Origin: Planctomycetota bacterium
Lineage (GTDB): Bacteria > Planctomycetota > UBA1135 > GCA-002686595
Length of the DNA: 64,000 nt
Reading direction: 5' to 3'
NCBI GenBank assembly: GCA_030746555.1
Contig: JASLMK010000128.1
Coordinates: 1 to 64,000 of the forward strand
Shown here: positions 9,432 to 26,768 of the stretch, piece after piece
How the letters are laid out: every line of letters begins with the position of its first letter
Position numbering within the stretch: position 1 is the stretch's first letter
Made by a program: the position numbers and the translations under genes
Notes under the pieces: generated by a model
The model's database searches: none
What the model saw: the letters and a program-made list of their open reading frames with translations, nothing else
Told to the model about the DNA's origin: nothing

Positions 9432-10781
9432 ATGCTCCTCTCCCACGCCCCGCTCCTCGCCGCCACGATCGCTCTGGCCACCGGCGCGGGGCCCGCGCGC
9501 CCGCCCGCCGCCGGCCCTGCGCCCCTCTCTACCGCGGAGGACGTCGACTACCTCGGCGACGTGCGCTTCGCCCTCGAGGTGCTCGAGCGCGAGTGCGGCC
9601 ACTTCTTCCGCGCCAAGGACATCGACTGGAAGCAGGTCTCGCGCCGCTTCCTGGGCGAGGCGCGCAAGGTCGAGACCCACGAGGAGCACCATGCCCTGCT
9701 CTGGCGGCTCTTGGCGCGCCTGCGTGACGGGCACGCCTCGGTGCGGCCCCTGGCCGCGGGCGAGGGCGTCGGCCTGCCCGAGAGCTGGCGCGCCGAGCGC
9801 ACGGGCCCGGGGATGTTCTGGTGCGTGAGCGGCAAGAAGGTGTTCGTGAAGAACAGCTGGTCGGGAGCGGCGCAGGTCGGCGTCGAGCCGGGCATGGAGG
9901 TGCTCAAGGTAGACGGCGAGCCGGCCATGAAGTGGCTCACCCGGCGCGTCGAGGAGGCGTCGGATCGGATCAGCTTCTCGACCGATCACCAGGCGCTCTA
10001 CCACGCGTGCCATTGGGGCCTGGCGGCCCCGGTCGGCACGCGCCTCAAGCTCGAGCTGAAGGATGTCGGGCGCAAGAAGCGCAAGCGCACCCTGACCTAC
10101 GGCAAGGCCTCCACGGTGCCCTAGGGACCGATCGCCTTCCCCGAGGGTCTGCAGGGCGACGGCGACCTGCGCTTCGGCCTCCTGCCGTCGGGCTTCGGCT
10201 ACGTGCACCTGCGCCGCTGCCCCGGCGATCTGCCCGAGCGCATGGACGGCGCGCTGGCCGAGCTGGCCGAGGTCGAGGGCATGATCCTCGACTTCCGCGC
10301 CAACGGCGGCGGCGGCTTCGACCACGACGGCCTGCTCGGGCGCTTCGTCCCGACCGGCCGCTCCCTCGACTTCGCCAAGCGCATCGAGAGCGCCGGCCCG
10401 CGCCCCTACGGCGGGCCGCTGGTCGTGATCGTCGACGCGGGCACGCGCAGCGCCGGGGAGACCGGTAGCGGAATGTTCAAGGAGGACGGGCGGGCCTACA
10501 TGATCGGCGAGAGCCCGACGGCGGGCATGTCGGCGTCGAAGAAGACCATCGAGCTCCCCTCGAAGCTCTTCGCCCTGTACGTGGCCGTGCGCTCCAACAA
10601 GCAGCGCTTCAACGGCGGCCGCGGCCTCGAGGGGATCGGCGCGGTGCCCCACGAGACCCTCGCCTACGACCCCGCCGACCTCGCCGCCGGCCGCGACACC
10701 CTGCTCCTGCGCGCCGAAGAGCTCTTGGGGGATTTCCCGTCGCGGAAGGTCCCCTACGACCACACCCGGGATCGACGTTAG
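9432..10781 (+). pseudogene. S41-family-like secreted protease, interrupted by an in-frame TAG
   Basis: One continuous frame from ATG 9432 to 10781 (about 449 codons) is broken only by TAG at 10122-10124. The first part has a signal peptide (MLLSHAPLLAATIALATGAG), the helical N-terminal region of C-terminal-processing proteases, and a PDZ-like segment (VGVEPGMEVLKVDGEPAMKWL). The second part holds the protease core: GFGYVHLRR, ILDFRANGGGGFDHDG, TRSAGE with the presumed catalytic Ser, and the GESPTAG region. S41 enzymes cleave proteins in the cell envelope. Without the stop the gene would look whole. A point mutation or a base error is the simplest cause. As sequenced, translation would yield a protein without the active site. 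Confidence 0.65.
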
Positions 10782-10866: not shown

Positions 10867-12376
10867 TCAGCTCGTTAGCCGGTGGTAGAGGTCGAAGGCC
10901 TTGGCCTCCAGGCGCGCACCGGTCAGGTCGCCGGTCTCCAGGCGCCGCCGCGCCCGCCGCTCCCACCAGCCGACACGCCCACGGGGCAGGCCCAGCTTGA
11001 GGGTCGCAAGGTGCTCGAACAGCCGCCGCGCACGGGCCACGTCCGGGGGAATCTTCCCCGGCCAGGTCTCGTCGAGGTGGTACTCGCCGATCGTGCCCCA
11101 CTCCTCGAGGTCGCGCGGCGGCCGGTAGCCCAGCTCGAGGGCCGCTGAGTACAGGGCGCTGCCGGGGATCGGACGGTAGGGCCACACCGTCGGCCGCGCC
11201 CGCTCGCAGCGGCCCGCGATGCGCCGGCACTCTTCGAGGGTCATCATCATCGAGCGCTCCTGTTCGTGCGGGTAGCCGATGATGTAGGTCACCCAGGAGG
11301 TGATGCCACGCCGGTCCAGCTCCCACGCCGCGCGCTCGTTGGCATCACCGCTGGTGTGCTTGCCGATCGAGCGCATCATCGCGGCGTCGCCGGTCTCCCC
11401 GCCGAGCCCGACCACGTACAGCCCCGAGTCGCCCATGGCGTCCAGGGTCTCCGGCTCGTAGCGCACGATCGAGTTCGCTTGCATCAGGCAGTACCAGGCG
11501 ATGCCGACGCCGCGCTCGATCAGGCCCTCGCTGAAGGCCCGGGAGCGGCGCTCGTCGACGCCCCAGTTCGCGTCGTAGAAGCGCACGGCGTCCACGCCCC
11601 AGCGCTCGACGAGCTCGCACAGATCGTCGAGCAGGCGCGGCGCCGGGAGGGCCTTCCAGCGGCGCTCGGTCAAGCCCGGCGAGCAGCAGAAGGTGCAGGG
11701 CTCGGGACAACCGAAGCTGGAGCTGTAGCCGATGCCGAAGAAGGGCCGCTCCTCGAAGCCCGGGCGGCGTCGGCATGCGCTCCACTTCGCGCAGCGAGCG
11801 ACCGGAGAGCTGGGCCGCGCGGTAGGGCTCGATGTCGAGCAGGTGCCAGGGGCAGTTCGGCAGGTCCTCGAAGCCGACGATCGGCCGTCGGGCGGTGCGC
11901 ACTACCTCGCCCTCTCGCCACAGGGCGAGGCCCGCCACGCCCTCGAGATCCGCCCCCGCCTCGACCGCCGTGACGAGCTCGGCGAAGGTCTGCTCGCCCT
12001 GTCCGATGCAGACCGCGTCGTAGAGCCCGGTCTCCAGCTGCAGGCGCGGGTCCGCGCTCGCGAACCAGCCGCCGACGAACAGCGGCAGGTCGGGGTGGGC
12101 TGCCTTGACCCGCCGTGAGCAGCGGACGGCGTCGGCCACCTGGTAGCCGAGGATGCCGGTCGTGCCGAACAGCAGCGCCCCCTCGCAGGCCTCGACCACG
12201 CGCCGCCGCGCCTCCGCCTCCGAGAAGAGGTTCCCGTCGATCACCACGACCTCGCGACCCTCGCGGTCGGGGAGCGCGGCGATCGCGAGCAAGGAGAGCG
12301 GCAGGAGATCCTTGCTGACGACCGCTCCCCGCGCAGGATCCCCCATCTTGGGGAAGTAGAGAACGATGCGTCGCAC
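10867..12376 (-). pseudogene. B12-binding-domain radical SAM protein, one-base frameshift
   Basis: From ATG 12376 the first frame gives a B12-binding-like domain (VVVIDGNLFSEAEARRR, GTTGILGYQVADA, FVGGWF) followed by PWHLLDIEPYR. Near 11759-11764, in a cccggg run, the frame must shift by one base. The second frame continues with FGCPEPCTFCCSP, which holds the radical SAM CxxxCxxC cluster, then the TIM-barrel part (DANWGVDERRSRAFSEGL, GLGGETGDAAMM, YIIGYPHEQERS) to 10867. A single extra C explains the break. Corrected, the protein is about 502 residues and closely parallels the intact paralogue at 14313. Such enzymes use a 4Fe-4S cluster and S-adenosylmethionine, often with cobalamin, for methylations or rearrangements. 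The substrate is unknown. The gene diverges from the ATP-grasp gene. Confidence 0.75.
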
Positions 12377-12547
12377 TCACCAATCATAGATCGCGACGCG
12401 ACCGCGGCGCGCGGCTGCGAGGGCAGGCGCAGGAACTCCGCGTCCATTCCCGGGCCGCGCCTACGATGGTGGGCGAACTTGGAAGGGACACTGTTCGTAG
12501 TCGCGAAGCGGCCGCCCCTCCGCCCCGACCGCGGTTCCGGCGTCAGC

Positions 12548-12553
12548 TATCAT
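12548..12553 (+). promoter_or_regulatory. -10-like element (TATCAT) close to the ATP-grasp start
   Basis: TATCAT ends 8 nt before ATG 12562, with no ribosome-binding site between. Transcription from it would begin at or next to the start codon. No good -35 hexamer is seen at 16-18 nt. Confidence 0.4.
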
Positions 12554-12561
12554 CGACCCCG

Positions 12562-14316
12562 ATGATGGCCGCGTCCCCCTCCCGCGGCGGTTCCCGAGGG
12601 AAGGTGCTGGTGCTCGGGCGGGACGAGCGAAGCTTCCTGGCGGTGATCCGCTCCCTCGGACGGCGCGGCGTCGAGGTCCACTGCGCCTGGTGCCCGCCGG
12701 ACGCGGTGGCCCTGCGCTCGCGCTACGCCGCCCATCACCATGACCTGCCGGTCGCGACCGGCTGCAACGGCCCTTGGCTTGTCGCCCTCGAGGCCCTCTG
12801 CCGCCGCGAGCGCTTCGATCTCGTCCTCCCGACCCACGACCCCTCGGTCGTCGCCCTCTTCCACCAGCGCCGGCGCCTGGCCGAGTGCGCCCACGTCTAC
12901 CAGCTCAACGAGCGCGCCTTCCAGGTCTCCTTCGACAAGCGCGCGACCCACGACCTGGCGCGGGAGGTCGCCGTCGATGTGCCGGACGAGGTCCCGGTGG
13001 ACGCGGGGACGCGGGTCGGCGATCTCCTCGACAGGCTCGGCTCGCCCCTCGTGCTCAAGCCGCGGCGCTCCTTCGCCTTCGGCCGCAAGAAGTGGGAGCA
13101 CCAGGTGCGCAAGGCGGTGAACGCGGAGGAGGCCGAGGTCGCCTTGCGCGCCCTGCGCGACGCGGGGGAGGTGCTCGCCCAGGCCCACGTACCCGGGAGC
13201 GGACTGGGGGTCGAGATCCTGGCCGAGGGGGGCGAGGTACTGCTCGCCTTCCAGCACGAGCGCGTGCACGAGCCCCTCGCGGGCGGCGGCTCCTCCTACC
13301 GCCGCAGCGTCCCCCTCGAGGACGAGTTGCTCGCGGCCGTGGGACGTTTGGCGCGCGCCATGGACTACAGCGGCGTGGGGATGTTCGAGTTCAAGCGCGA
13401 CCGCACCACCGGGCGCTGGTGGCTGATCGAGATCAACGGGCGCTTCTGGGGTTCCCTGCCCCTCGCCGTCGCCGCTGGAGCCGACTTCCCGTGGGCCCTC
13501 TACCGCCTGCTCGTGCACGGCGAGCGACACTTCGACGGCTCCTACCGCGCCGGCCTCCACTGCCGCAACCTGGCCATGGACGCCACCTGGATCTGGCGCC
13601 ACCGGCGCGCGCGGCGCGCAGGCCGGAGCCTGGCCACGCTCCCGGCCGCGACCCTCGCCGGCGAGCTCGCCGGCCTGTGCCGAGGGACCGAGCGCGTGGA
13701 CACCTGGACGGTCGACGACCCGCGTCCGGGCCTGGCCCAGGCGAGGCGCGTGGCGGGCGAGATCGCCTGGGCGGCGCGCGGGAAGCTGGCGCGCTGGCCC
13801 TACCGAAGCGCCCTCTTGCGCCGCGGCCTCACGGCCCGCCTGCGCCGCGCCCTACCCGGCGCGCGGCGCCTCCTGTTCGTGTGCAAGGGCAACGTCTGCC
13901 GCAGCCCCTTCGCGGAGCACCTCGCGCGAAGCCTGCTCCCCGAGGAGCTCGAGCTCGCCTCGGCGGGCACCTTCGACGAAGCGGGCCGTCGGTGCCCCGC
14001 CGAAGCCCTGCACGCAGCCCGCGCCCTCGGCGTCGACCTCTCGGCGAGCCGCTCGCGCGTGCTCGACGCGGCGGCGATCGACGCGGCGGAGGTGATCCTG
14101 GTCTTCGACGCGGCCGACGTGACGCGCGTCTCCCGCGCCTTCCCCCGCGCGCGACGCAAGCTGTTCCGCCTCGGCCCCCTCGCCGCGCACGGTCCGGTCA
14201 ACCTGCGCGATCCCTACGGCGGCGACCTGGCCGCGTTCCACGCTGTCTACGCGCAGATCGCCACGGCCCTCGCCTCTCTGGCGCTGATCGTCGGCCCACC
14301 GACGGTGGGGACTTGA
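12562..14316 (+). CDS. ATP-grasp ligase fused to low-molecular-weight protein tyrosine phosphatase
   Basis: About 584 residues. Residues about 15-330 form an ATP-grasp protein of the carbamoyl-phosphate-synthase-like type: an N-terminal Rossmann part (KVLVLGRDERSFLAVIRSLG), the ATP-binding PLVLKPRRSF, and the metal-binding LIEINGRFWGS. ATP-grasp enzymes join a carboxylate to an amine or thiol through an acyl phosphate. After a helical linker, residues about 435-580 are a low-molecular-weight phosphatase with its P-loop (LLFVCKGNVCRSPF, a CX5R motif) and the general-acid loop (NLRDPYGGD). Both active sites look complete. ATG 12562 or the adjacent ATG 12565 is the likely start; codons further upstream have no family resemblance. 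The stop overlaps the TTG start of the radical SAM gene. ATP-grasp genes of this type often occur in polysaccharide or natural-product loci. The substrate here is not visible. Confidence 0.8.
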   Translation: MMAASPSRGGSRGKVLVLGRDERSFLAVIRSLGRRGVEVHCAWCPPDAVALRSRYAAHHHDLPVATGCNGPWLVALEALCRRERFDLVLPTHDPSVVALFHQRRRLAECAHVYQLNERAFQVSFDKRATHDLAREVAVDVPDEVPVDAGTRVGDLLDRLGSPLVLKPRRSFAFGRKKWEHQVRKAVNAEEAEVALRALRDAGEVLAQAHVPGSGLGVEILAEGGEVLLAFQHERVHEPLAGGGSSYRRSVPLEDELLAAVGRLARAMDYSGVGMFEFKRDRTTGRWWLIEINGRFWGSLPLAVAAGADFPWALYRLLVHGERHFDGSYRAGLHCRNLAMDATWIWRHRRARRAGRSLATLPAATLAGELAGLCRGTERVDTWTVDDPRPGLAQARRVAGEIAWAARGKLARWPYRSALLRRGLTARLRRALPGARRLLFVCKGNVCRSPFAEHLARSLLPEELELASAGTFDEAGRRCPAEALHAARALGVDLSASRSRVLDAAAIDAAEVILVFDAADVTRVSRAFPRARRKLFRLGPLAAHGPVNLRDPYGGDLAAFHAVYAQIATALASLALIVGPPTVGT

Positions 14317-15824
14317 GCGCGCCGAAGAGGCTGGTCCTGTACCTGCCGCTCCGGAGCGATCCGAAGCGCGACGAGCCGACCAGCGCCGACCTGCTGCCCC
14401 TCGAGCTGCTCCAGATCGCCGGCGGACCGGACGCGGAGGGGTTCGAGGTCGTGCTCATCGACGCGAACGTCATCGATTCCGACCCGCTGCCTCGCCTATT
14501 GGAGGCCTGCGACGGTGCCTTGCTCCTGGGCTGCTCGGCGATCCTCGGCTACCAGGTCCACGACGGCCGTGACGCCGCGCTGGCGGTGCGCGAGCGCTTC
14601 CCCGACCTCCCGATCGTCTGGGGCGGCTGGTTCCCCAGCGTCGTGCCCGAGCTGTACTTCGAGGCGGGGATCGCCGACGCGGTCGTCCTCGGGCAGGGCG
14701 AGCTGACCTTCCTCGATCTCGCCCGCGCCGTCGAGGCGCGCGCCGACCTCGAGGGCGTCAGTGGCCTCGCGCTCCCGCGTGACGGCGCAGTGGTGCCCAC
14801 GCCGCCCAGGCCCGTGGTCGGCTTCGACGCCCTCCCCGCCCTGCCCTGGCACCTGCTCGACTTCGAGCCCTACCGGCGCCGCCAGCTCGCCGCGGGCTTC
14901 GGCCACGTGCGCCACCGCATGCCCTTCCCCGCCGGGTGGAGCGAGCCGCGCCCACCGGTCGGCTTCGCGCTCTGCAGCAGCTTCGGCTGTCCCTCCGAGT
15001 GCACCTTCTGCTGCAGCCCACTCGTCACCCATCGGCGCTGGGAGGCGCTCGGCGGCGCGGACCTGGCGGCGCTGGCCTGCGAGCTCCGGGGACGCTTCGG
15101 ATTCGACCTCCTGCGCTTCAACGACGCCAATTGGGGGGTCTCGGAGCCACGCGCGCGCGAGTTCAGCGAGGGGCTCGCCGGCTCGGGGCAGGTGCTCTGG
15201 TGGAACGCGACCATCGAGGTGGAGGCGGTCCTGCGCTACGACGACGCGACCCTCGACCTCATGGCGGAGAGCGGCTGCCACCTGCTCTGGCTCGGAGCCG
15301 AAACGGGGACCGAGGCGATGCAACGCAGGATCAGGAAGCGCGTGCCGGTCGAGGAGGTCCCGCGAGCCCTCGAGCGCCTGGTCGGCAGGGGCATCACGAC
15401 CGGCTGCTTCTGGATCATCGGCTACCCCGGCGAGGGGTCGGCCTCGATGTGGACGACCCTGCGCAAGGCCGCCGCGACCAAGTACGCCTTCCGTGGCTCG
15501 GCGTCGGACGTCTACCCGTTCCGCGCGGTCCCGGGCACGGCCGACTTCGAACAGGCGCGCCGCCTGGGCTGGGAGCTGCCGGCCACCTTCGAGGAGTGGG
15601 GTCGCTGCTTCGAGTGGAAGTGGAACACCGAGCGCACGCCGCTGCCGCCGAACGTCCGCCGGGCTTGGAGCCGGTTCATGCGTTGCGCGGCGCACTTCGA
15701 CCGGACGGCCACCGACGGCCCGGCCTGGCTGCGCGCCCTGGCGAGCGCCACCGCCGGCTGGCGCCTGCGCACGGGCCGGTTCGGCTTCCCCGTCGAGCAG
15801 AAGCTGCTCGACCTGTGGTCGTAG
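14313..15824 (+). CDS. B12-binding-domain radical SAM protein (intact paralogue)
   Basis: 503 residues from TTG 14313, which overlaps the previous stop as TTGA. Residues 1-150 form a cobalamin-binding-like Rossmann domain (VVLIDANVIDSD, GCSAILGYQVHD, WGGWFPS), though no DxHxxG motif is present, so cobalamin binding is uncertain. PWHLLDFEPYR links to the radical SAM domain, with the cluster Cys at 226, 230 and 233 (CPSECTFC). Later motifs are NDANWGVSEPRA, WLGAETGTEAM and WIIGYPGEGS. It has the same architecture as the frameshifted gene at 10867, and the pair flank the ATP-grasp/phosphatase fusion. Family members methylate or rearrange unreactive carbons; the substrate is not predictable. Tight overlap suggests it is made together with the ATP-grasp protein. 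Confidence 0.85.
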   Translation: MSAPKRLVLYLPLRSDPKRDEPTSADLLPLELLQIAGGPDAEGFEVVLIDANVIDSDPLPRLLEACDGALLLGCSAILGYQVHDGRDAALAVRERFPDLPIVWGGWFPSVVPELYFEAGIADAVVLGQGELTFLDLARAVEARADLEGVSGLALPRDGAVVPTPPRPVVGFDALPALPWHLLDFEPYRRRQLAAGFGHVRHRMPFPAGWSEPRPPVGFALCSSFGCPSECTFCCSPLVTHRRWEALGGADLAALACELRGRFGFDLLRFNDANWGVSEPRAREFSEGLAGSGQVLWWNATIEVEAVLRYDDATLDLMAESGCHLLWLGAETGTEAMQRRIRKRVPVEEVPRALERLVGRGITTGCFWIIGYPGEGSASMWTTLRKAAATKYAFRGSASDVYPFRAVPGTADFEQARRLGWELPATFEEWGRCFEWKWNTERTPLPPNVRRAWSRFMRCAAHFDRTATDGPAWLRALASATAGWRLRTGRFGFPVEQKLLDLWS

Positions 15825-16864: not shown

Positions 16865-17227
16865 ATGATCAAGCCCGTCTTCCTGGGCACCTTGGCCGCA
16901 GTGACCGCCTTGGCCGTGGCCACGGGCGACCACGAGTGCAACGGCTTCATCGCCGTCATGCCCCCCGACCCGCCGCCCTGGCCGCGGATGCAGTGCAAAA
17001 ACGTCTCGTGCGGGACGAGCTGCAGCCTCGACTCCATGGAGCTCGACGTGAACGCGGAGCTGTGGTGGTGCGAGTGCGACCCCTCCGGTGAGCCGAGCTG
17101 TTGCCACACGATTCAGAAGAGGATCGACGGCGAGTGGCAGGAGCCCACGGGATGGGGCACGTGCCGCTCGGACTGCGGAGGCGGCTGTTGCAGCGGGAAC
17201 GCCGGCGACGGCTTCGAGTGCGAGTGA
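16865..17227 (+). CDS. Small secreted cysteine-rich protein
   Basis: 120 residues from ATG 16865, which is preceded by gggagg at 5 nt. A signal peptide (MIKPVFLGTLAAVTALAVATG) is followed by a mature part of about 100 residues with 13 Cys, several in pairs or close spacing (CGTSC, CEC, SCC, CRSDCGGGCC), and two adjacent Trp. This is the profile of a compact disulfide-bonded extracytoplasmic protein. The odd Cys number leaves one free or bound elsewhere. No family is recognised, and the metal-binding and disulfide alternatives cannot be separated from sequence alone. The anchored protein at 17310 follows by 82 nt. Confidence 0.7.
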   Translation: MIKPVFLGTLAAVTALAVATGDHECNGFIAVMPPDPPPWPRMQCKNVSCGTSCSLDSMELDVNAELWWCECDPSGEPSCCHTIQKRIDGEWQEPTGWGTCRSDCGGGCCSGNAGDGFECE

Positions 17228-23441: not shown

Positions 23442-25631
23442 ATGACGCCCCCCACAGAAAGCTCCGCGCCTCAGGACACGACACCGCCGGCCGCCCCCGA
23501 CCGCACCACGAGGGTGGCGCTGGTGGGCGCCGGGTTCATCGCCGACGACCACCGCGAGATCCTCGCCGGCCTCGAGGAGGCGCGCCTGGTGGCGGTCTGC
23601 GATCCCGACCTGGGGCGGGCACGACGCCTGGCCGAGAGCGCCGGCGGCTGCGCCGCCGTGGCCGACGTCGCCGAGCTGGCCGACATCGGGGTGGACGTCG
23701 CCCACGTGCTCGTCCCGCCCGACCTGCACGTCCCCGTGGCGCGGCGCCTGCTCGAGGCGGGGATCGGCGTCTTCCTGGAGAAGCCCGCGGCGCCACAGGC
23801 TGCGTCGGTGCGGGAGCTGGGGGAGCTCGCGGCGGCCCGCGACCTACCGTTGGGCGTGAACCACAACCACGCCTTCCATCCCGCGTTCGCGCGCCTGGCC
23901 GCCCGCCTCCGCTCGGGCGAGATCGGGCGCGTGGAGCACGTGCGCGTCACCTGGAGCGTGCCCCTCATGCAGCTCGACGCCGAGCAGTACGCCCACTGGA
24001 TGTTCCGAGCGCCGCGGAACATCCTCTTCGAGCAGGCGGTCCACCCCCTGAGCCAGGTGCACGCCCTGTTGGGTCGCGTCGAACACTGCCAGGCCACCGT
24101 CCTGGGAAGGCGTGAGTTGCTCCCCGGCGAGGTGTTCTGCGATCGGTGGCTGGTCGCGGCACGCGCCGAGCGCGGCACGGCCGAGGTGCATCTGGCCTTC
24201 GGCCAGGGCTTCACGCGCAGCTCCCTGGAGGTGATCGGCACCGACGGCTGCCTGGAGGCGGACTTCACCCACGACGCGGTCGTCGGAGAGAGGGCGACGC
24301 CCTGGCTGGACTTCTACGACGCCTACGTGGCCTCGGGCGGACGAGGGCGCGAGCTCCGACGCGACGCTCGCCGCGGACTCGTCGGCTACCTGGCCGCCAC
24401 CCTGGGCCTGCGCCCGCGGGCCGACGCCTTCTTCGTCGGCATGCGCGATTCCATCACCGCCTTCCACCGCGCCCTGCAGGCCGGCGAGCCCGCGCCGGTG
24501 GATGCAGCGAGCGCCGCCGAGGTCCTCGACTGGTGCGAGGCCGTCGCCGCCGGCGCCCCGACGCCCCCCAACCCCGAGGCCGCGCCCCTCGCCTCCACGC
24601 CCCCGCGCCCCGGCGAGGTCGTGGTCCTGGGCGGGACCGGGTTCATCGGAAAGCGCGTGGTGGCGCGCCTGTTGGACGCCGGCAGGCCGGTGACCTGCCT
24701 CGTGCGGCGCACCCACTCCCTGCCCGAGACCATCGCCGAGGCCGCCCGCGACGGTCGCCTGCGTCTGGTGCGCGGGAGCCTCGAGGACTCCGAGGGGCTG
24801 GCGGACGAGCTCACCGGCGCCGCGGCCGTCGTGCACCTGGCCACCGGAGGCGGCGAGACCTGGGAGGAGGTCAGCCGCTCGATGGTCGAGGGCACGCGCC
24901 GGGTGGGCGAGGCCTGCGCGGCGGCGGGCGTGGGACGCCTGCTGTACGTCTCCTCGATCGCCTCCCTCTACACGGGCCTCGACCTCACCGGCGAGCTGGA
25001 CGACTCGACCGCCACCGACCCGCGGCCCGACGGGCGCTCGCTCTACTCGCGGGGCAAGATCGCCGCCGAAGAGGCCGTCTTGGACCTCTCACGCGAGCAC
25101 GACCTGTCGGTCTGCATCCTGCGCCCCGGAGTCGTCGTCGGAGCCGGCACGCCTCTGCAGCACTCCGGCCTGGGCCTATGGGTGCGGGACAGCCACTGCA
25201 TCGGCTGGGGCCGGGGCGACCATCCCCTCCCGCTGGTGTGGGTCGAGGACACCGCCGAGGCCATCACGCGCGCCGCCCTCCATGAGGGAACCGAGCTCGA
25301 CGGACGGGCCCTGAACCTGTGCGCCAAGGTCCCCCTCACCGCTGCCGAAGTGGTCGAGGAGCTGGCGCGTTCCAGCGGTCGGGCCCTCGTGTTCCACCCG
25401 CGCTCCCTGGCCCTCTCCCAGGTGATGGAGGTCGGCAAGTGGCTGGTCAAGATCGCCGGAGGCCGGCGCGGCATCCCCTTTCCGTCATGGCGTGACCTCT
25501 CCTCCCGCTCTCTGAGGCCCGAGTTCTCCTGCACGACCGCCCGGCGAGTCCTCGGCTGGGAGCCGGTCGAGGAGCGCGAGGCGTTCCTGGACGCTGCGGT
25601 GCGCATCCACGGTCGCGGCGGCGACGCCTGA
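23442..25631 (+). CDS. Fusion: Gfo/Idh/MocA oxidoreductase + NAD-dependent epimerase/dehydratase
   Basis: 729 residues from ATG 23442. Residues about 20-370 are a Gfo/Idh/MocA oxidoreductase, with the Rossmann motif VALVGAGFIADDH, the conserved EKP (FLEKPAA) and a C-terminal beta-sheet domain. After a Pro/Ala linker, residues about 390-725 are an extended SDR of the sugar-epimerase type, with VVVLGGTGFIGKRVV, the Ser of YVSSIAS, and the YxxxK motif in LYSRGKI. The first half would oxidise or reduce a sugar ring position; the second would epimerise, dehydrate or reduce a nucleotide sugar. Having both in one chain suggests consecutive steps on one sugar. The GT4 gene starts 3 nt after the stop, supporting a glycan or glycolipid role. 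Confidence 0.85.
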   Translation: MTPPTESSAPQDTTPPAAPDRTTRVALVGAGFIADDHREILAGLEEARLVAVCDPDLGRARRLAESAGGCAAVADVAELADIGVDVAHVLVPPDLHVPVARRLLEAGIGVFLEKPAAPQAASVRELGELAAARDLPLGVNHNHAFHPAFARLAARLRSGEIGRVEHVRVTWSVPLMQLDAEQYAHWMFRAPRNILFEQAVHPLSQVHALLGRVEHCQATVLGRRELLPGEVFCDRWLVAARAERGTAEVHLAFGQGFTRSSLEVIGTDGCLEADFTHDAVVGERATPWLDFYDAYVASGGRGRELRRDARRGLVGYLAATLGLRPRADAFFVGMRDSITAFHRALQAGEPAPVDAASAAEVLDWCEAVAAGAPTPPNPEAAPLASTPPRPGEVVVLGGTGFIGKRVVARLLDAGRPVTCLVRRTHSLPETIAEAARDGRLRLVRGSLEDSEGLADELTGAAAVVHLATGGGETWEEVSRSMVEGTRRVGEACAAAGVGRLLYVSSIASLYTGLDLTGELDDSTATDPRPDGRSLYSRGKIAAEEAVLDLSREHDLSVCILRPGVVVGAGTPLQHSGLGLWVRDSHCIGWGRGDHPLPLVWVEDTAEAITRAALHEGTELDGRALNLCAKVPLTAAEVVEELARSSGRALVFHPRSLALSQVMEVGKWLVKIAGGRRGIPFPSWRDLSSRSLRPEFSCTTARRVLGWEPVEEREAFLDAAVRIHGRGGDA

Positions 25632-25634
25632 GCC

Positions 25635-26768
25635 ATGTCGACCGCGCGGAACGCGCCCCACCTGCTGCACGTCTTCTCCACCTTCGTCCCCGCGGGCCCG
25701 GAGCTGCGCACCGTGGCCTTGATCGAGGGGCTAGGAGACGAGTTCCGCCACTCGATCCTGGCGGTAGACGCTCGCACGACCGCCGCCGAGCGCCTGTCGG
25801 CCGACGCGCCCGCGCGGGTGCTCGAGAGCCTGCCGCGGGCCGGCACGCCCAAGACCGTGCGGGCCATGCGGCGTCTGTTCGACGACGTCGCTCCCGACGC
25901 CGTGCTGACCTACAACTGGGGCGCATTCGACGCGGTGCTGGCGGCGCGCAGCCAGGGCCGGCCCGTGCTGCACCACGAGGACGGCTTCGGCCCCGACGAG
26001 GCGCGCTCGTTCAAGCGGCGGCGCGAGCTGGCGCGGCGCTGGGTCCTGCCCGGGACGCGCGGCGTCGTCGTCCCCTCGCGCGTGCTGCGGCGCATCGCCC
26101 TGGAGCGCTGGGGGCTGAGCCCCGAGCGCGTGGTCTGTGTCCCCAACGGGGTGCGCGTGGAGGCGTTCGACCGCCGCGGAGAGGGCGCGCGGCTGCGCGC
26201 GGAGCTCTCGATCCCGCCCGCCGCCCCGGTCGCCGGCCTGGTCGGCCACCTGCGGCCCGAGAAGAGCCCCGCGCGCTTCCTCGAGGCCTGCGCGCGCGTC
26301 GATGGCGACCTCGGCCTGGTCGCCGTGGTCGTCGGCGACGGCCCCGAGCGCGGGCGCCTGGAGGAGCTGGCCCGCACCCCCGCCCTCGCCGGGCGCGTGC
26401 ACCTGGTCGGACATCGTGACGACCTGCCGCGCTGGTACGACCTGATGGACCTGTTCTGCCTGTCGTCGGACACCGAGCAGCTGCCGGTCACCCTGTTGGA
26501 GGCGATGGCCTCGCGCCTGCCGGCGGTCTCGACCGACGTGGGCGACGTCGGCGCGGTGCTCGGCGAGGAGCAGGCGCGCTGGGTCGTCCCCCTCGCCGGC
26601 GCCGACACCGCCTCCGCGCTCGCCCGCGCCCTGGAGGAGCTGGCCGCCGACTCGCCCCTGCGCGAGCGCCTGGGCGCGGCGAACCGCTCCCGGGTCGAGC
26701 GCGAGCACGACTTCTCCGTGATGCTGGACGCCTATCGCTCCCTGTACCTCGCAGCGGTGCGCGCCTGA
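25635..26768 (+). CDS. GT4-family glycosyltransferase
   Basis: 377 residues with the two-Rossmann GT-B layout of family GT4: N-terminal HLLHVFSTFVPAGPELR, a middle VVCVPNGVRVEAF, then VAGLVGHLRPEK, and the nucleotide-sugar-binding EQLPVTLLEAMA containing the E-x7-E arrangement. It would transfer a sugar from a nucleotide donor, probably with retention of configuration, on the cytoplasmic side of the membrane. Acceptor and donor are unknown. It lies 3 nt after the sugar-modifying fusion and overlaps the Nudix gene by one base (TGATG), so the three genes are probably one operon. Confidence 0.85.
   Translation: MSTARNAPHLLHVFSTFVPAGPELRTVALIEGLGDEFRHSILAVDARTTAAERLSADAPARVLESLPRAGTPKTVRAMRRLFDDVAPDAVLTYNWGAFDAVLAARSQGRPVLHHEDGFGPDEARSFKRRRELARRWVLPGTRGVVVPSRVLRRIALERWGLSPERVVCVPNGVRVEAFDRRGEGARLRAELSIPPAAPVAGLVGHLRPEKSPARFLEACARVDGDLGLVAVVVGDGPERGRLEELARTPALAGRVHLVGHRDDLPRWYDLMDLFCLSSDTEQLPVTLLEAMASRLPAVSTDVGDVGAVLGEEQARWVVPLAGADTASALARALEELAADSPLRERLGAANRSRVEREHDFSVMLDAYRSLYLAAVRA

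Follow-up and report, generated by a model that had tools for sequence, protein, structure and literature searches.

A planctomycete gene encodes, in one chain of 584 amino acids, an ATP-grasp ligase and a complete low-molecular-weight (LMW) tyrosine phosphatase, and is flanked on both sides by genes for B12-binding radical SAM proteins, here called RS1 and RS2. The three genes lie in a stretch of 64,000 nucleotides (the window), from contig C128 of a genome of 137 contigs (4.0 Mb, 91% complete). The set is real and coherent and, in the literature searched, apparently undescribed, yet it is made of known families. As the initial annotation had supposed, this exact three-gene set was not found described there; nor did that literature yield an ATP-grasp domain joined with Wzb, or a description of the fusion. 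The fusion is real and spread, yet rare, and its link to the radical SAM genes is confined to the window genus, where both genomes, which are related, carry it. We tentatively read the fusion as a surface-glycan tailoring enzyme whose ligase is paired with a phosphatase of the Wzb type, and the radical SAM proteins as tailoring enzymes that the window genus has added; we give this reading slightly less than an even chance.

The fusion gene and its flanking genes

The fusion (12562-14316, forward strand) was characterised by Pfam and NCBIfam searches, a six-way alignment, AlphaFold2, Foldseek and a profile search of PDB sequences. Two Pfam domains exceed their cut-offs in the same chain: ATPgrasp_Ter (PF15632) at residues 203-320, with 35.6 bits against 29.1, and LMWPc (PF01451) at residues 437-572, with 78.1 bits against 23.2. 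The ATP-grasp part extends over about residues 13-340 and the phosphatase over 433-575, and the linker between them (340-430) has low confidence in a model with an overall pLDDT of 80.6. Lys166, Glu276, Glu290 and Asn292 of the ATP-grasp half are invariant in all six aligned fusions, which come from different genomes, as are Cys441 and Arg447 (CX5R), S448 and Asp550-Pro551 of the phosphatase half. With both domains over their cut-offs and their catalytic residues invariant, the earlier claim that a ligase domain and a complete phosphatase share one chain is borne out.

The ATP-grasp half belongs to ATPgrasp_Ter by its score, its retained metal/ATP residues and its fold. It matches PDB 2pn1 both by sequence profile and by fold, and its fold resembles, among other enzymes, two L-amino-acid ligases (RizA and one from B. 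licheniformis) and PylC; the same fold takes in biotin carboxylase and carbamoyl phosphate synthase, and Foldseek cannot choose the substrate. The best NCBIfam match of the fusion, PRK12767.1-4 (2.4e-14), reaches 53 of the 390 bits required, so that the fusion is not a PRK12767 equivalog. No NCBIfam model of a graspetide or RiPP ATP-grasp enzyme matched it, and the locus does not qualify as a graspetide cluster. From its PF01451 score, CX5R(S/T) motif and Asp-Pro loop, the phosphatase half is predicted to be an LMW protein tyrosine phosphatase. In the profile search of PDB sequences it is closest to Wzb (E 3.5e-28), with AmsI close behind, and its best single PDB match by phmmer is the arginine phosphatase YwlE.

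RS2 (14313-15824, forward strand, 503 aa; identified by Pfam, a structure model and Foldseek) has a TTG start that overlaps the fusion's stop by 4 bp, as TTGA. RS1 (10867-12376, reverse strand) is divergent from the fusion across 185 bp (12377-12561, from the gene-start coordinates) that by eye are poorly conserved in the nearest sequenced relative, the congeneric Planctomycetota bacterium ARS15 (L004, G014). The domains and arrangement described in the initial annotation, with radical SAM genes on both sides, one overlapping and the other divergent, were thus confirmed, except that RS1 is frame-broken in the window and intact in ARS15. Its domains (PF02310 and PF04055) are split over two open reading frames, 10867-11673 and 11345-12376, that differ in frame. 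Aligning them with the ARS15 gene, a single intact frame of 504 aa with 87-89% identity to the window pieces, places the break at one extra C near 11764. The neighbouring S41 peptidase-like gene (9432-10781) likewise has an in-frame TAG at 10122-10124 where ARS15 has TGG and an open frame. Both breaks fall in a span of about 2 kb, and either errors in the consensus or genuine decay of recent date could account for them.

In ARS15 the fusion and RS2 also overlap, as ATGA, so that the two genes remain coupled in spite of a different start codon. Order and strands of the three genes are identical in the two genomes, with protein identities of 76-89% (79% for RS2), and dN/dS is about 0.06-0.07 for the fusion and each RS1 half (YN00; rough values, dS being high). 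Constraint on the RS1 halves, at about 0.06 by the same rough measure, has not been lost. Together, the identity, the shared order and strands and the low dN/dS argue that the three-gene arrangement is not chance. However, the whole surrounding stretch, guaAB included, is common to the window genome and ARS15, and for this reason chance adjacency remains a serious rival. In other genera where both are placed, the S41 peptidase and guaA lie on separate contigs or hundreds of kb apart, which left no unoccupied site from which an insertion island between them might be recognised.

Distribution of the fusion and glycan genes around its relatives

The search for the fusion covered 154 genomes of the order, 392 of the phylum and 170 of a second order, in sets that overlap. 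It was found at full or near full length in the window genome, ARS15, G237, G275, G373 and G341, the last with an incomplete N-terminal part as called. Beyond the window genus it thus occurs in four or more Planctomycetota genomes, spread over three families, at 32-35% identity to the window copy, and RS homologues are never nearby. The initial annotation had likened the three genes to a small biosynthetic cluster and had named rarity of the radical SAM genes beside the fusion as evidence against this. Such rarity is what we found: in four of the six genomes with the fusion, its surroundings lack an RS homologue; one of 40 ATP-grasp loci has one, that locus being ARS15 itself; and more than 50 genomes carry a radical SAM tandem without the fusion. 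The idea of a general three-gene biosynthetic unit is thus not supported.

Phylogenetic analysis of 41 ATP-grasp homologues paired the proteins of the window and ARS15 with an unfused protein from locus L118 (100/100), the nearest relative outside the genus (41% identity). Unfused genes are interspersed among fused ones, and the phosphatase has therefore been gained or lost more than once.

The neighbours of these relatives are repeatedly glycan genes. The L118 locus holds a Bac_transf sugar transferase, a GT2, a flippase-GT4 chain, a polysaccharide deacetylase and Poly_export. A polysaccharide deacetylase adjoins the fusion in L114 and L117; Methyltransf_24 genes stand beside it in L114 and L115, with a homologue in L116; and L115 also has an adjacent gene that is Wzx-like by similarity only, with no Pfam match. 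Outside the phylum, a deacetylase and an LMW phosphatase lie within a few kb of the ATP-grasp gene in four Pseudomonadota loci and in Pelotalea (Thermodesulfobacteriota); these five loci (L005-L009) come from Marinimicrobium, a gammaproteobacterium, Competibacter and Pelotalea. In four of the five the phosphatase is itself fused, forming the C-terminal part of a GT4 glycosyltransferase in L005 (8004-9704, next to the ATP-grasp gene) and L008, and of a deacetylase in L006 (8388-9941, again next to the ATP-grasp gene) and L007. A uniform tblastn test found an LMW phosphatase in 11 and a deacetylase in 10 of the 40 ATP-grasp loci, against 0/25 for each in RS loci of the same phylum; because some loci are related and the queries came from the same loci, these counts describe and give no rate. 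The phosphatase thus moves between glycan enzymes as a swapped partner, and its fusion to the ATP-grasp ligase adds a further example. Among the members of a surface-carbohydrate cluster in Clostridium acetobutylicum, a gene-neighbourhood study (PMC4000134) includes an ATP-grasp aminoacyl ligase.

This swapping bears on a further explanation, namely that the phosphatase half, acting on protein arginine or tyrosine, is the main activity, with the ATP-grasp half serving as a sensor of ATP or a metabolite. The match to YwlE would fit, as would the presence in the window genome of another LMW phosphatase, fused to a Sua5-like domain. However, the ATP-grasp catalytic residues are invariant in all six fusions, and among the relatives it is the phosphatase that is exchanged between glycan enzymes while the ATP-grasp stays. 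We consider this explanation very unlikely. The Sua5/YrdC-like fusion just mentioned (L175:9514-10620; G000 C72) had been tried as a second copy of our fusion and was rejected as such; matches of similar span, in frames of about 370 aa, are widespread in the order. A supposed second ATP-grasp paralogue in an exopolysaccharide-like cluster on contig C102 was also rejected, this weak match being biotin-carboxylase-like by sequence.

The window itself resembles these glycan loci less closely. The locus contains no deacetylase, flippase or polymerase gene, and since no flippase, polymerase, phosphoglycosyl transferase or co-polymerase was recognised among the genes called between about 3.4 and 29 kb, the region does not classify as a Wzx/Wzy locus. 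The nearest sugar genes, a Gfo/Idh-epimerase fusion (705 aa) followed by a GT4 (23514-26768), lie beyond guaAB, about 8 kb from RS2. Three Poly_export and two Wzz genes occur elsewhere in the genome. None of the four Wzz/Wzc/kinase-like proteins checked there has a tyrosine cluster in its last 30 residues, so that a target of the Wzb type is not evident. A Cys-rich, secreted-looking protein of 120 aa (16865-17227), previously offered as a possible product of the locus, is 85% identical in ARS15 and 58% in G011, with otherwise marginal matches in the order. Its best homologue outside the genus thus sits in a genome without the fusion; we reject it as a product and regard it as probably unrelated.

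The radical SAM family

The RS proteins are predicted to be class B radical SAM enzymes, having a CX3CX2C motif and an N-terminal B12-binding domain. C226, C230 and C233 of that motif, together with G104-G105 and G127xGE130, are invariant in 11 RS homologues. The RS2 model (pLDDT 83.7) has AprD4, MgmA, TsrM and TokK as its best Foldseek matches. Its closest fold, AprD4, is a diol dehydratase rather than a methyltransferase, and the cofactor use of RS2 therefore cannot be assumed. We rejected the idea that RS2 is a known enzyme, because it missed every NCBIfam equivalog cut-off by a wide margin: none was reached among AprD4 (34 bits against 500), BchE (80 against 481), ApyD (75 against 750), HpnJ and PhpK.

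RS1 and RS2 fall in one Planctomycetota radical SAM family, on two deep branches (100/100), the intact ARS15 copy standing in for window RS1 in the tree; that copy is 47% identical to RS2. The core of the family is a tandem pair (L053:7182-11363 in G000 C3) present in more than 50 genomes, from which the fusion is absent. RS2 groups with the second member of this pair (53-58% identity), and RS1 with copies like those on contigs C59 and C105 of the window genome. In the loci compared, the neighbours of the tandem pair, named by eye, include an ABC exporter-like gene and a 544-aa gene. The RS1-type locus on C59, also present in ARS15, holds a close paralogue of RS1 in the company of a glycosyltransferase, a NodU-type carbamoyltransferase, another B12 radical SAM gene and a GDSL-TPR protein, surroundings that favour a glycan role. 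The RS genes thus do not need the fusion, nor does the fusion need them. We also noted that in the window genus the glycosyltransferase that follows the core tandem pair scores 328 bits against a cut-off of 300 for SenB (selenosugar synthase; NCBIfam), and that members of the radical SAM family lie close together, two or three at a time, in loci L141 and L142 of family f27, which falls outside the order of the window.

That RS1 and RS2 belong to separate clades of the family, and that no member lies beside the fusion outside the genus, would be expected if the three genes were unrelated neighbours: the fusion would act alone on a glycan, RS2 would have become coupled to it by a chance insertion, and RS1 would be decaying in this strain. 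The frame break in RS1 and the extension of synteny into unrelated genes point the same way. However, the four-base overlap is kept in both species despite the change of start codon, RS1 is under purifying selection between them, and it is improbable that chance alone brought recruits from two clades to the sides of a single gene. We consider this explanation rather improbable, at perhaps one chance in four.

Somewhat less probable still is a small diffusible natural product, a pseudopeptide or ester made by the ATP-grasp enzyme and then modified by radical SAM chemistry. Its attractions are that the class of RS1 and RS2 includes the tailoring enzymes AprD4, TokK and TsrM, that the ATP-grasp fold resembles amino-acid ligases, and that the fusion and RS2 overlap in both species. 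Nevertheless, no carrier, NRPS/PKS, precursor peptide or exporter was recognised in the locus; the fusion's relatives are accompanied by glycan genes; and the RS homologues are widely kept family genes rather than cluster genes.

Proposed role and relation to known systems

We return to surface-glycan tailoring as our preferred, if tentative, reading. The neighbours of the fusion's relatives, the closeness of its phosphatase to Wzb and its amino-acid-ligase-like folds together make the glycan link moderately supported. What weakens it is that polymerase, flippase and deacetylase genes are missing from the window, as are tyrosine-rich tails from the Wzc-like proteins checked.

We infer the substrate, the reaction, the phosphatase target and the action of RS1 and RS2 on the same molecule as the fusion as follows. 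The ATP-grasp half would use ATP to activate a carboxylate as an acyl phosphate, which would then be joined to an amine or, alternatively, a hydroxyl group. The most likely pair is an amino acid, or an acid like it, and, as its acceptor, an amino sugar within a cytosolic nucleotide- or lipid-linked sugar. The phosphatase half, being of the Wzb/AmsI type, may dephosphorylate a partner in the same pathway, and the fusion would ensure that both activities are made in a fixed ratio. RS2 and RS1 could then further modify the same building block, for example by C-methylation, dehydration or epimerisation. The fullest form of the proposal, that the locus helps to make a surface glycan bearing both an amide-linked acid and a radical-SAM-installed modification with the aid of the bifunctional enzyme, we regard as unlikely.

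To our knowledge, the surface glycans and radical SAM repertoire of planctomycetes have been little studied. Two things emerge from the analysis. One is a concrete, testable pairing of ATP-grasp ligases with LMW phosphatases, accompanied by domain swapping, in the glycan loci of three phyla; the other is a radical SAM family of the Planctomycetota, the core tandem pair of which most genomes of one taxonomic family retain. If the radical enzymes do act on the glycan, cobalamin radical chemistry would be linked to exopolysaccharide tailoring.

Each part of the set has known counterparts. The fusion shares its fold and its catalytic Lys, Glu, Glu and Asn with CarB/PylC-like ATP-grasp ligases (PF15632; PRK12767, carbamoyl phosphate synthase-like), but unlike these it bears a phosphatase domain, and its relatives sit among glycan genes. 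With the phosphatases Wzb, AmsI and YwlE it shares the CX5R and Asp-Pro loops, the whole domain aligning to Wzb (2fek); here, however, a ligase carries this domain at its C terminus, and no Tyr-rich Wzc was seen among the proteins checked. The radical SAM proteins share the CX3CX2C motif, the B12-binding domain and the fold with AprD4, MgmA, TsrM and TokK (Foldseek E 3e-18 to 1e-15), yet at only 14-19% identity. Finally, exopolysaccharide-type loci (L005-L009 and L118) have in common an ATP-grasp relative, a deacetylase and glycosyltransferases, joined by Poly_export in L118 and, in L005-L009, by a phosphatase as neighbour or fusion partner, whereas in the window the gene is separate from any flippase, polymerase or deacetylase gene, its neighbours being radical SAM genes.
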